A DNA stretch of 64,000 nucleotides from Parabacteroides johnsonii DSM 18315 (GTDB lineage Bacteria; Bacteroidota; Bacteroidia; Bacteroidales; Tannerellaceae): positions 3,596,001 through 3,660,000 of the forward strand of contig NZ_CP102285.1 of assembly GCF_025151045.1 (NCBI RefSeq), written 5' to 3'. Shown in pieces: positions 5,269 to 54,150 of this stretch (positions are counted from its first letter, which is position 1; each line of letters opens with the position of its first letter). The position numbers and the translations under genes were made by a program. The notes below the pieces were generated by a model that was given only the letters and a program-made list of their open reading frames with translations, was not told the DNA's origin and searched no databases.

Positions 5269-6456
5269 TCAATCTTTTTTAATAGTTGTTATAATCAATG
5301 TAGCCTCCTGCCCCTTCAACAAATCATCCGGAAGACCGGTAATCTTCCCGTTCACGATAATCGTTCCGGCGTCTTGAACCAGTCGTAAGGCTTTATCACT
5401 CAACGGCTCCCATTCCACAAACTGTTGTGTTACCGTTCCGTCGTTATAATGCACATTCACAAACGAAGGTGTATATAACAACTCACGTGTCACATGCCCG
5501 TCAATATCGCGCAAGGTAGCTTTTCCTTCGGAGACCTGCAAGCGTGCCGGTTCGATAGAAGTGATGCGCAACTCATTTTCCGATACCGCCCGATAGCCGT
5601 CGGGTATCTTCTTGTACATACGGATATAGTCGATATCAAAACTCTTCGGATACGGGACGGAAGGATCGTAAGTTCCTGTCCAACCGTTCTTTGCTTTTCG
5701 ATTGTCATAGAAAGAGATAATCTGGATCAGCGGATAAGTGATCGCAGCCTTATGTGTCATCACCTGTATGCCATCCACATACACGGTCACACCTTCCGGT
5801 GTCCAATCGAAACCATACACATGAAATTCTTCCGCCAGTTTCTTATTGGCAAACCAGGGATGTTCCGTGTGATACTGGATCGTCGAATCTTTCCAACTGT
5901 GCACGGTGGACCAGATACGATCGACATCAGTCCCCAATATCTCAAAGATATCGATCTCGCAACTCTGGTTCGGATCATCTTCAAACCCGATCAACCACCA
6001 GGCACAATGCACACCACCTCCTGCTTGCATCTTGGCACGCATTTCGTAATAGCCGTACTGGTTTATTTGTGTAGCTTCCGTCTTGATCGAGTGAAGGGCT
6101 TTCTTTTTCGGATCATAGTGATGCATACCTGTGCGGCTGGCACTCATAAAACCCGATATATACATACCCTTATCAAACTCATTTTTTGAATCCCGGTCGA
6201 TCGTCAGACGGACCACTCCGTCTTTCATCTCGTATGTCGGTGTACAGACGGTCCGGTCTTTCGGCCAGGATGGCAGATACTCGGGAATCCATTTCGTCCG
6301 GTCGATCTCTTTCCCATCGAATTCATCGTGAAAGATCAGACGGTAGCCCTCTTTCTCCAAAGGATTGGCAGGATAATCCTGGGCCTGTATGTTCTGCAAG
6401 TTTCCCTGTAAAAGGAAACAGGCAAGAAGTGTACTGAATAGATGTTTATTACTCAT
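5269..6456 (-). CDS. GH16 family endo-glycanase, secreted
   Basis: The 395-residue protein has an N-terminal signal sequence (about 1-26). The GH16 jelly-roll domain starts at GYRLIFHDEFDG (37-48) and carries the family active-site motif EIDIFE, with Glu167 as nucleophile, Asp169 as helper and Glu172 as acid/base. Residues from about 275 form a small C-terminal beta domain after the catalytic part. GH16 enzymes cut internal beta-1,3 or beta-1,4 bonds in glucans, galactans and host poly-LacNAc chains. With GH89 and other host-glycan enzymes nearby, a mucin O-glycanase role is more likely than laminarin cleavage, but this is inference. It is the first enzyme gene after susD, separated from it by an intrinsic terminator. 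Its signal peptide has a Cys at residue 13, but no clear lipobox follows it. Confidence 0.85.
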   Translation of the reverse strand: MSNKHLFSTLLACFLLQGNLQNIQAQDYPANPLEKEGYRLIFHDEFDGKEIDRTKWIPEYLPSWPKDRTVCTPTYEMKDGVVRLTIDRDSKNEFDKGMYISGFMSASRTGMHHYDPKKKALHSIKTEATQINQYGYYEMRAKMQAGGGVHCAWWLIGFEDDPNQSCEIDIFEILGTDVDRIWSTVHSWKDSTIQYHTEHPWFANKKLAEEFHVYGFDWTPEGVTVYVDGIQVMTHKAAITYPLIQIISFYDNRKAKNGWTGTYDPSVPYPKSFDIDYIRMYKKIPDGYRAVSENELRITSIEPARLQVSEGKATLRDIDGHVTRELLYTPSFVNVHYNDGTVTQQFVEWEPLSDKALRLVQDAGTIIVNGKITGLPDDLLKGQEATLIITTIKKD

Positions 6457-6475: not shown

Positions 6476-6510
6476 AGAGAAAAAAGGCCGCAAATGAAGC
6501 GGCCCTTTCT
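6476..6510 (-). terminator. Intrinsic terminator between susD and GH16
   Basis: Read on the minus strand, a perfect GGCCGC/GCGGCC stem (6499-6504 with 6486-6491) closes a 7-nt loop and is followed by an uninterrupted run of U. It lies about 30 bp after the susD stop and before the GH16 start, with no plus-strand gene to serve. Partial read-through here would give high susCD and lower enzyme mRNA. Confidence 0.8.
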
Positions 6511-6539
6511 CAATTAATATAGACTCTAAAAGAATCGGA

Positions 6540-29374: not shown

Positions 29375-29390
29375 TTAGCAACCGCAAAAT

Positions 29391-29518
29391 AATTGGCAAT
29401 TGACAATTGACAATTGACAATTGTTTTAACTTTGCAATCGAAAACTTCAATTGCCGGCTGTCAATTACCAATTCTCTTTCTCACTGAATTGTCTATTGTC
29501 AATTGTCAATTGCCAATT
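29391..29518. repeat. Inverted pair of 32-bp AATTGACAATT-type arms
   Basis: The arm at 29391-29422 and the reverse complement of 29487-29518 agree at all but one or two of 32 positions; each arm is a run of AATTGACA units. The 64-bp space between them is ordinary sequence. The pair separates porX from tsaE and could fold into a long hairpin that ends the porX transcript. Confidence 0.8.
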
Positions 29519-29527
29519 ATTAAAGTT

Positions 29528-45903: not shown

Positions 45904-46406
45904 CACCTGTAGTAAGCATTATCATGGGCAGTACCTCGGACCTGCCCGTAATGGAAAAAGCGGCTAAACTGCTTGACGAGATGGAAATCCCGTTCGAAAT
46001 GCACGCTTTGTCCGCCCATCGTACGCCAGCTGAAGTGGAAGTATTCGCCAAAGGAGCCAAAGACCGCGGTATCAAAGTGATTATTGCGGCTGCCGGCATG
46101 GCTGCCCACCTGTGCGGTGTAATCGCTTCGATGACGACAGTCCCTGTGATCGGCGTGCCTATCAATTCGACACTCGACGGTATGGACGCTTTGCTGGCCA
46201 TCGTACAGATGCCTCCGGGAATTCCGGTCGCCACTGTCGGTATCAACGGTGCTTTGAACGCCGGTATCCTGGCAGTCCAAATGCTTGCCGTCGGAGACGA
46301 ACAACTCCAAGATAAGCTTGCCGCCTATAAGGAAGACCTTAAAAAGAAGATCGTAAAAGCAAACGAAGAACTGGCTAAGGTTTCCTTCAAATACAAAACG
46401 AATTAG
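45900..46406 (+). CDS. purE: N5-carboxyaminoimidazole ribonucleotide mutase
   Basis: The 168-residue protein has the PurE motifs [12 protein letters not shown] (7-18), [10 protein letters not shown] (about 38-47), [14 protein letters not shown] (about 61-74) and [19 protein letters not shown] (about 103-121). The SDLP and SAHRTP motifs contain the active-site residues. It converts N5-CAIR to CAIR in purine synthesis. It overlaps gcvH by 4 bp and is followed by an inverted repeat before ispG. Confidence 0.97.
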
Positions 46407-46523
46407 TTGAAAGTTGAGAGTTGAAAGTTGAAAGTTAACAAAAACGCAAAGTGTTGATACCGCTTGCCACCCTCGTTGACTCTCACCTTTCAACTTTCAC
46501 CTTTCAACTTTCACCTTTCAACT
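46405..46523. repeat. Inverted GTTGAAA-repeat pair between purE and ispG
   Basis: Four GTTGAAA/GTTGAGA units at 46405-46436 face CTTTCAAC units at 46481-46523; about 28 of 32 positions pair. The 50-bp space between holds ordinary sequence. The left arm starts in the purE stop codon. It is the same design as the AATTGACA pairs but with a different unit. Confidence 0.75.
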
Positions 46524-46530
46524 AAAAAAG

Positions 46531-52300: not shown

Positions 52301-52319
52301 GATTCATCTCAATATTTCC

Positions 52320-52336
52320 AACAGACGGCGTCTGTT
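52320..52336 (+). terminator. Possible terminator after the thioesterase gene
   Basis: AACAGACG and CGTCTGTT are perfect reverse complements around one G, followed after four bases by ACTTTTT. The loop is tight, so pairing would use five outer bases. Confidence 0.35.
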
Positions 52337-52435
52337 CGTTACTTTTTAAGTAAGTTTTCGTGTCAGTCGAATAATTTACTTAAAAGATGTACCAGACTGA
52401 TTTAACGGAAACAAAATATTATCCGATTTATAAAA

Positions 52436-52964
52436 GAGGACGACACCCGGCATCTTCTGTCACTATCTATCTAATAAATAATATATTAGCCGGTGTCAAC
52501 GTGGTTTTTCAAGGTTGACACCACATCGACACCTTTTCCTGTCTTTGGCGATTACCGGATATTTGTAGACAAGTAATAATCTACCAACTATCCCATTTCA
52601 TGCCATCAACTAATTCAAAACATACAAAGAACTAAATGATAGCATATGGTAAAGTATATACAGGTAGTACTACTTATATGCAACAGGTAGTACTGCCTAT
52701 TGACAGTATATAGTACTACGTATCTACGGTAGATAGTATTGCATATAAGTAATATGTGATATGCCATGAATTAGTTCACTATGACTTTTGAAGTAGTTTA
52801 TGGCATATTTCGAAACAGTTGCTTCATGAGGATGGACAGGTTACGGACAAAACTTCGGACACAAAAAGGTGTCGATGTGGTGTCGACCTCAATACCGGCA
52901 TCGACACCTTTTAATATATTGTTTATTAGACAGATGACATCAAGATATGCCAGGTGTCGTTCTC
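52436..52964. repeat. Giant nested imperfect palindrome, about 530 bp
   Basis: Arms share a centre at about 52700. From outside in: 52436-52453 with 52947-52964 (16 of 18 paired), 52468-52488 with 52912-52932 (19 of 21), 52513-52537 with 52864-52888 (24 of 25), 52600-52647 with 52759-52806 (long, imperfect) and 52672-52683 with 52739-52750 (12 of 12, centre shifted by about 11 bp). Similar sequence may extend out to about 52418 and 53005. A GGTGTCGA-like octamer occurs eight times. There is no gene inside. It could be a MITE-like element, the DNA of a long hairpin RNA, or a site for a DNA-binding protein. Confidence 0.85.
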
Positions 52965-53292
52965 TATTGCATTTTTTTATATAAAGATTTGAATTGGATA
53001 AAATCTAAACAGGCTCTATTATCATGATCAGCTACCACCTTCTTCCGTAGTCGATATAAACACAAAGCAAGCTTTACCCCTCATCCCTGAGACATAAAGC
53101 CTAAACACGTAAATCAGTTATTATAAAAAACGAAGCAGTGTTATTAATGAATGTGTCTATAAGTATACTCTTTATTTTCCGTAGACAAAGGAAGGGCATA
53201 TATATTGCAAGGATATGACAAGAGAAAGACAATTTAATTGAAAATAGAAGACCAAGGATTGTTTTTCTTTCGTACCTTAGTCCCCAAAGACG

Positions 53293-53352
53293 AGAAACTG
53301 TTTTGATTTTTTCGCCTCATGATTTGAGATGTATTAAATCAAAACAGTTTCT
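53293..53352. repeat. Perfect 17-bp inverted repeat before the ATPase gene
   Basis: AGAAACTGTTTTGATTT (53293-53309) and its exact reverse complement (53336-53352) are 26 bp apart and end 30 bp before the ATPase ATG. It could be an operator or a leader hairpin. Confidence 0.7.
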
Positions 53353-53382
53353 GAGTTTCCTAACAATTTTCAATTACCAATA

Positions 53383-54150
53383 ATGGTTTATCTGAAGCAA
53401 ATCAAACTAATCAATCCGGACGAGGTATCGGGGCCGGTAGAAGATCTGAAATATCCGTACAAGGCAGCAGCCGTACGGTATATGGACGAACTGGTATTCA
53501 CGAGGCCTGTCACATTCCTGGTGGGAGAAAACGGGATCGGTAAATCGACCTTGTTAGAGGCCGTCATGTATAAATACGAGAGGCGTAACGAAGATCTGCA
53601 AGGCATGCTGAACGACGGCGACGAGAGCCACAAGGTACTCGCCAACGTCTTACCCGATCAGATTCGTTTAGTGGAGGTACGCAAACCGGACGACTATTTC
53701 TTTTTCCGTGCCGAATCTTTTTTCGACCATGCCCGCGAGATCGATGCCCAATCGATGCGCGACATCCTCAAATACGGACGCGATTACTCCATGGCACGCT
53801 ATGGAGGACGGCGTCTGCTGGAGCAGTCGCACGGTGAAAGTTTCCTCAGCACATTCCTCAACTACGGAGAACGGAACATGCTCTATATCCTCGACGAACC
53901 GGAAGCAGCCCTTTCCCCCCAGCGCCAACTGTCATTGCTCGTACGGATAAAAGAATTGGTGGACCAGGGATGCCAACTCATCATCTCCACCCATTCGCCG
54001 ATACTGATGGCTTATCCGGAAGCCGACATCTACAACATAGACGAAGACGGCGCTCGCCTGACTCCTTTTGAGGAAACGGAACATTACCAACTGACGAAAT
54101 ATTTCCTGACACACACGCAGCAGATGCTCCGAGAACTGGGAATCGGTTGA
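53383..54150 (+). CDS. Small ABC-type ATPase (AAA_23/COG3910 type)
   Basis: The 255-residue protein has Walker A GENGIGKST (about 48-56), a Q-loop region, an ABC signature in LLEQSHGESFL (about 146-156), Walker B MLYILDEPEAALS (about 166-178) and the H-loop STHSP (about 201-205). It lacks the long coiled coil of SMC/Rad50 proteins and has no membrane partner. Similar stand-alone ATPases are common, and their role is not known; RecF-like DNA work or part of a defence pair are possibilities. There is no second gene that could be a partner on this strand. It follows the large non-coding stretch. Confidence 0.85.
   Translation: MVYLKQIKLINPDEVSGPVEDLKYPYKAAAVRYMDELVFTRPVTFLVGENGIGKSTLLEAVMYKYERRNEDLQGMLNDGDESHKVLANVLPDQIRLVEVRKPDDYFFFRAESFFDHAREIDAQSMRDILKYGRDYSMARYGGRRLLEQSHGESFLSTFLNYGERNMLYILDEPEAALSPQRQLSLLVRIKELVDQGCQLIISTHSPILMAYPEADIYNIDEDGARLTPFEETEHYQLTKYFLTHTQQMLRELGIG

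Follow-up and report, generated by a model that had tools for sequence, protein, structure and literature searches.

What kind of sequence is a nested palindrome of about 530 bp that lies between two genes of Parabacteroides johnsonii and seems to hold no gene of its own? An earlier note on the 64,000-nucleotide stretch of chromosome analyzed here (the window) had proposed a MITE-like mobile element, an ancient inverted duplication, the gene of a long double-stranded RNA, or a site for a DNA-bending or recombination protein. Here, we conclude that the element is probably a MITE-like, non-autonomous intergenic palindromic repeat of some Parabacteroides, with a putative protein-binding array as its core, and that it was probably moved in trans. 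The first of the four proposals fits best, given dispersed intergenic copies that group partly by species, shared ends, and element-free sites. An ancient inverted duplication is unlikely: the copies form a repeated family, and the symmetry is a property of that family, which has an internal array of its own. For common gut bacteria, the array would give a handle on a putative protein that binds or transposes DNA: if the array is bound, the copies mark loci under shared control, and if the element is only mobile, it is a marker of Parabacteroides genome plasticity.

The palindrome is real, its arms lie where they were first noted, and the element now measures ∼549 bp. Inverted arms pair at 52432–52497/52903–52968 (66 nt, 76%, center 52700), 52512–52543/52858–52889 (32 nt, 91%, center 52700), 52668–52683/52739–52754 (16 nt, 94%, center 52711), and 52608–52624/52760–52776 (17 nt, 82%, center 52692); the shifts of the center fit the internal 22/23-bp pitch. 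In a gapped alignment, the self-inverse score of the element (52429–52980) is 125, a score reached by none of 1,000 dinucleotide-preserving shuffles (mean 24.3, sd 4.4, maximum 58). Moreover, none of 100 shuffles folded as well, either as RNA (z = −14.36) or as DNA (z = −12.51), which bears out the claim that the arms are too ordered for chance. That the element is unlike other inverted repeats in the window was not wholly upheld, since other palindromes outscore the fixed windows that cut it. A coarse scan over 454 fixed windows of 560 bases each gave top scores of 76 near 29.1 kb and 60 near 46.2 kb; the fixed windows over the element cut it and so reach 55, compared to 125 for the whole element. 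The palindromes at 29388–29521 and 46403–46525 have arms that are inverted short tandem repeats of the TTGACAA type and the GTTGAAA type, with 64 and 55 bp between the arms, respectively. The window also holds a perfect 17-bp inverted repeat at 53293–53352, with 26 nt between its arms, upstream of the ATPase gene at 53383.

The element recurs in its own genome and in a few relatives (G numbers denote genomes and L numbers loci). G000, the own genome, is one contig of 4,749,455 bases and holds at least five copies, near 2.551, 3.450, 3.649 (the window copy), 4.409, and 4.598 Mb. Three of 59 genomes of relatives, the own genome included, carry the element (G000, G013, and G020, which is Parabacteroides massiliensis SN4), and a family-wide search matched 4 of 123 genomes, adding G091 (P. 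acidifaciens 426-9); copy numbers are lower bounds because a limited number of candidates was scored per genome. The close relative G002 had no match. An order-wide search with a sequence-only model and stricter filters matched 3 of 393 genomes, i.e., the own genome, G091, and, weakly (117 bp, E 1.7e-4), G102; G013 and G020 were not among its matches. A 22-row HMM of the core matched 25 of 25 sequences (5 from the own genome, 8 from G013, 10 from G020, 1 from G091, and 1 from a metagenome contig), all of which had been preselected by a BLAST match to the repeat. The recurrence that the earlier note had proposed to look for in Parabacteroides and Bacteroides genomes was thus found in Parabacteroides, with at least 5 own copies and 25 in total when relatives and the metagenome contig are counted. 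A pattern scan of genome contigs returned 15 stretches, of which 10 contain the core (9 from P. massiliensis and 1 from P. acidifaciens) and 5 gave no HMM match. There was no match in 72,556 plasmid records. In viral contigs, none of nine loci from a first pattern scan had a core HMM match at E ≤ 10, and in two further scans, the last of which gave at least 120 stretches with 80 of them covered, the best core E value among the matches listed (110 loci) was 0.11. Carriage by phages was rejected, as the sole matching “phage” record looks chromosomal. This record, L040 (MT836775.1, “Bacteriophage sp.”), has VirE-, HU-, and DUF3575-like genes in the chromosomal order of G000 and G013 and looks mislabeled.

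What the copies have in common is a core with a mirror-image layout: ACTA sites with a pitch of 22 bp, the fourth of which is degenerate, are followed by four dyads of ACTA and TAGT with a pitch of 23 bp and then by TAGT sites, again with a pitch of 22 bp (Table 1). The unit spacings in copy L068 are 22, 22, 34, 23, 23, 23, 38, 22, and 22; other copies agree, except that single units are absent and that the spacing is 24 where a dyad gains a center base, and the loose motif used for these spacings gives some spurious extra matches. TRF reports 2.6 copies of a 23-nt period in the core, and the array overall is mirror-symmetric. In an alignment of 24 cores, which omits the partial copy L078, the boxes that are invariant in all rows are the second AACTAA, the AACTA part of the third, and one TAGTT; the dyads vary little. 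With column 257 and the uneven left margin of L085 set aside, interior indels occur at seven alignment sites, four of which are the centers of the four dyads. Over all pairs, 0.114 of motif positions differ compared to 0.339 of spacer positions, a comparison that leans towards constraint because the motif columns were chosen from the consensus of the same alignment. This layout suggests an array that would be read by a dimeric DNA-binding protein, with half-sites flanking and dyads in the middle. The idea of a site for a DNA-bending or recombination protein may therefore hold for the core with its fixed-pitch dyads, but the binder is only putative. The weak match in G102 (L199, ∼1464–1623), which belongs to another genus of the family, is a different 23-nt tandem array, with TTAGTANNNTACTAA units that resemble the dyads of the element.

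Table 1. Positions in the window of the palindromic element, its parts, and the gap that contains it
Feature	Position	Strand	Basis or remark
Whole palindromic element	52429..52977	.	Left end by alignment with L068, right end with L069, and inverted arms; ends ± few bases
Intergenic gap of 1082 bp that holds the element	52301..53382	.	One-base overlap of these genes in G002
Left end, inverted-repeat terminus, with ACGACACCCGGCA at 52440-52452	52429..52460	+	Same end type in L068, L069, L086
Left inner arm, GACACC/GGTGTC material	52512..52543	+	Pairs with 52858-52889 at 91%
Conserved 245-bp core common to copies	52586..52830	+	Core alignment/HMM
Forward sites AACTAT 52586, AACTAA 52608, AACTAA 52630, degenerate AAGTAT 52652; pitch 22 bp	52586..52657	+	
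Four dyads GTAGTACTAC 52664-52673, GTAGTACTGC 52687-52696, ATAGTACTAC 52710-52719, ATAGTATTGC 52733-52742; pitch 23 bp	52664..52742	.	
Reverse sites TTAGTT 52771, GTAGTT 52793, ACAGTT 52815; pitch 22 bp	52771..52820	-	
Right inner arm	52858..52912	+	52864-52877 pairs with 52899-52912 (14 nt, 100%) between A run and T run
Right end, inverted-repeat terminus, with ACGACACCTGGCA (- strand, 52948-52960), then T run	52945..52977	-	Alignment, motif search

The outer parts are less constant than the core. In the window copy and in L069, both ends carry the motif ACGACACCNGGCA beside an A/T run, the right end of L069 having diverged; many other copies have one such end or none. The exact motif occurs three times in the own genome, always in the window copy or L069, and with one mismatch it has 29 matches compared to 12 for the reversed control. 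No transposon with ends ACGACACCYGGCA was found in the own genome, where the exact motifs lie only in copies of the element. Because the exact end motifs in the own genome led to no partner transposon, we call the element MITE-like rather than a MITE. Both arms are present, by eye, in the G091 copy; in G013 and G020, many copies are missing one outer arm or both. An outer arm from G020, searched in seven genomes, has nine matches, all beside cores; the search did not recover the arms known from L069 and G091, and solo arms may therefore have escaped it as well. As for the conserved ends and target-site duplications that a mobile element might show, ends are shared by some copies, but no target-site duplication is recognizable by eye at these old copies; the TATAAA found on either side of the window copy is more simply taken as belonging to the terminal repeat. 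A consensus scan for terminator-like sites found two in the 1082-bp gap compared to 0.5 expected. The right arm holds one of them, on the − strand only, and the other lies just past the thioesterase gene, outside the element. We read the right-arm hairpin with its A and T runs as a putative two-way terminator. In P. massiliensis, another intergenic repeat, a hairpin with CTGCGTCC, flanks the element in L085 (∼5848–5900 and 6485–6530), and by eye a similar hairpin fills the element-free gap at this site in G000.

The copies lie between genes. An ORF of ≥100 aa is present on both sides of 22 of the 25 copies (13 tandem, 6 convergent, and 3 divergent), and none of these 22 lies inside a gene of ≥100 aa, a count that sets aside mechanical ORFs of 128 aa (L069) and 119 aa (L072) that extend 43 and 50 bp into the core, respectively; L080, which belongs to the three copies outside this count, has a third overlapping mechanical ORF, of 102 aa. 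The neighboring genes are unrelated and have no visible common theme, with most of their names read from translations and Pfam run on six proteins. In the tree of 24 cores, a G000 trio is supported by 98, a G020 pair by 100, and the VirE-linked group by 99. The fourth dispersed G000 copy, L070, falls outside the trio, L077, a G013 copy, clusters with copies from G020, and the broader groups of G013 and of G020 have supports of 38 and 57. The tree thus suggests that the copies group by species only in part. Y1 transposases gave no match in G000 or G013, four in G020 (three of which have an internal stop), and one in G091.

Several sites can be compared between genomes. The thioesterase and ATPase genes, which lie 1082 bp apart around the window copy, have a one-base overlap in G002; among 30 fetched thioesterase loci, the ATPase gene is within 1.5 kb only in the own genome and in G002. 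G002 could have lost sequence here rather than never having gained the element, and a species tree from three stretches in eight genomes did not decide between loss and original absence. At the site of L085 in P. massiliensis, the element-free gaps measure 141 bp in G000, 91 bp in G018, and 93 bp in G021, and the flanks are 2.5 to 2.7 kb apart in G002, G013, and G091. The flanks of the L068 site are ∼3.2 kb apart in G091 and lie at different places in G013, making a rearrangement possible. Copies also occupy the same locus in different genomes, i.e., L077/L080 (G013 and G020), L070/L075 (G000 and G013), and the VirE site (G000, G013, and G020). At the syntenic site of L070 (2707–7413) and L075 (5857–6181), 4.7 kb lie around the element in G000 and ∼0.3 kb in G013; the extra genes in G000 appear, by eye, to be fimbria-like.

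The VirE site differs from the dispersed copies. A divergent core is present in G000, G013, G020, and the metagenome contig, and downstream of it come a VirE-like gene and then an HU-like gene. The distance from the core to the start of the VirE-like ORF is 41 bp in G020 and 5 bp in the other three. This core is without the usual pair of outer arms, and the G000 copy has one arm-like stretch upstream. Pfam assigns BT4734-like N-terminal, VapE-like, and DUF3874 domains as well as an HU-HIG domain to the proteins of the G013 locus. A general link between the core and VirE was rejected: across 30 VirE loci, one per genome and with fetched flanks, the core is present in only 3, which are orthologs (89 to 100% identical), and absent from 27. 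Because the 27 other loci are without the core, we regard the VirE-linked copy as one old kept site and not as a rule for this gene family.

How would such a repeat have spread and been kept? We suggest that the elements were carried into intergenic gaps by an enzyme provided in trans. The core would be bound by a dimeric protein, with single half-sites at the sides and dyads in the middle, and the outer hairpins with their A/T runs may act as two-way transcription terminators, which would let the element be tolerated between genes with little harm. The frequent absence of one or both outer arms is odd under simple cut-and-paste transposition.

A second reading, which we consider rather unlikely, turns this around: the core would be a maintained cis-acting site (an operator, an origin, or a nucleoid-type array) bound by a dimeric protein, with mobility being secondary. 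The fixed 22/23-bp pitch, the few interior indels with four of seven at exact dyad centers, and the VirE-linked copy kept at one locus in three species speak for it, as do fewer changes in motifs than in spacers in same-locus pairs. For the VirE-linked pair L079/L089 (G013 and G020), the changes fall on 12 of 76 positions in motifs and 65 of 169 in spacers (p 0.00023), and for L071/L089 13 of 76 and 64 of 169 (p 0.00074). The remaining pairs gave 1/76 and 9/169 for L071/L079 (p 0.13), 7/77 and 29/169 for L077/L080 (p 0.068), and 8/77 and 31/169 for L070/L075 (p 0.079). However, only the pairs with L089 are below 0.05 in a test biased to constraint by the choice of motifs, and three young pairs of dispersed copies had no significant difference between motif and spacer (p 0.23, 0.17, and 0.19). 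Furthermore, the neighboring genes have no visible theme and G002 has no match. A more specific form of a cis-acting site, in which the core is an iteron-like replicator or operator for the VapE-domain and HU-HIG proteins that was captured and spread by a palindromic mobile element, appears improbable. Its basis is positional, the divergent core being kept 5 to 41 bp upstream of the VapE-like ORF in three species; if true, dispersed chromosomal sites would answer to one trans-acting module.

The other alternatives make the element a gene or an accident. That it is the gene of a structured or double-stranded RNA is quite improbable; the fold is very stable, but any palindrome folds well, and the proposal of a long double-stranded RNA gained no positive evidence. 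Rfam had no match at the gathering score in the whole window, and ARAGORN found no tRNA in it. For the consensus fold of the 24 cores (−15.24 kcal/mol), the covariation term is −0.47 and speaks neither for nor against a hairpin; just 8 of 44 pairs have a double change and many arm pairs never vary. Promoter-like sites are at chance level (5 compared to 5.2 expected), although the sigma-70 type used may be unsuited to Bacteroidota. The Rfam candidates in the gap at E ≤ 1, MIR1509 and U4, were both far below their gathering scores and were discarded. A small gene in the right half, encoding a peptide that starts MTFELVSGMFR, is very improbable. Of 19 dispersed copies, 18 retain its ATG and one has GTG, divergence over the first 42 bases is 0.338 at third positions compared to 0.155 and 0.171, and the three strongest windows of a sliding control are in the same frame a few bases upstream. 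On the other hand, the frame ends after six codons in L070 and L075 and at varied lengths in other copies, the sliding control puts the ORF window at rank 9 of 204 with similar ratios elsewhere in the core, and no ATG is there in the VirE-linked and G091 copies. The only ORF of ≥60 aa that lies (nearly) wholly inside the element, of 67 aa, has no Pfam match. The earlier view that the element is not coding thus fares well on the missing Pfam match and the varying stops and less well on the kept ATG; it is likely noncoding. Finally, a chance artefact of composition in A/T-rich DNA can be set aside with near certainty, being refuted both by the shuffles and by the homologous copies elsewhere. The MITE-like repeat remains the preferred reading.

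Several known systems resemble such a repeat in part. The element has ∼549 bp without a transposase inside, shared terminal inverted repeats, and multiple dispersed copies, as MITEs do; we know of no MITE counterpart of the core array. None of the best open-access literature matches holds an earlier description of the repeat. REP/REPIN elements are dispersed intergenic palindromes moved by RAYT (Y1) transposases; the element is much longer, and Y1 matches are absent from G000 and G013, with four in G020. Iteron origins of plasmids and SaPI-type satellites have short repeats at a 22/23-bp pitch, in which direct sites and inverted dyads share a half-site. Like them, one copy of the element adjoins a VapE-domain gene and then an HU-like gene; unlike them, most chromosomal copies have no such gene beside them, and plasmids gave no match.

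Prokaryotic MITEs named in PMC10969869 include Correia, BOX, RUP, and SPRITE, the last with terminator-like sequences. The element shares with the MITEs described there that it is short, intergenic, and multi-copy (PMC10969869) and differs in that a partner transposase and target-site duplications were not found for it. The closest known kind is BrickBuilt of Porphyromonas gingivalis, which has 19 dispersed intergenic copies in one strain with 1 to 22.8 copies of direct 23-nt repeats (PMC4596501) and is also mentioned in PMC5771137 and PMC10969869. The BrickBuilt end GAGACCTTTGCA occurs in the window with ≤3 mismatches 49 times compared to 50.2 expected, i.e., at chance level; 2 of the 49 are 3-mismatch matches in the GACACCTTTT stretches of the element. 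The BrickBuilt ends GAGACCTTTGCA and TGCAAAGGTCTC are thus not those of the element, and the 23-nt unit, shown there as a logo, was compared by description. As in BrickBuilt (PMC4596501), which belongs to the same order of bacteria, the copies are dispersed and intergenic, with an internal 23-nt unit, predicted long stem-loops, variable and often incomplete ends, no transposase remnant inside, and a narrow host range. In contrast to BrickBuilt, which has direct repeats between an unlike leader and tail (PMC4596501), the element is a mirror image of nearly constant size.
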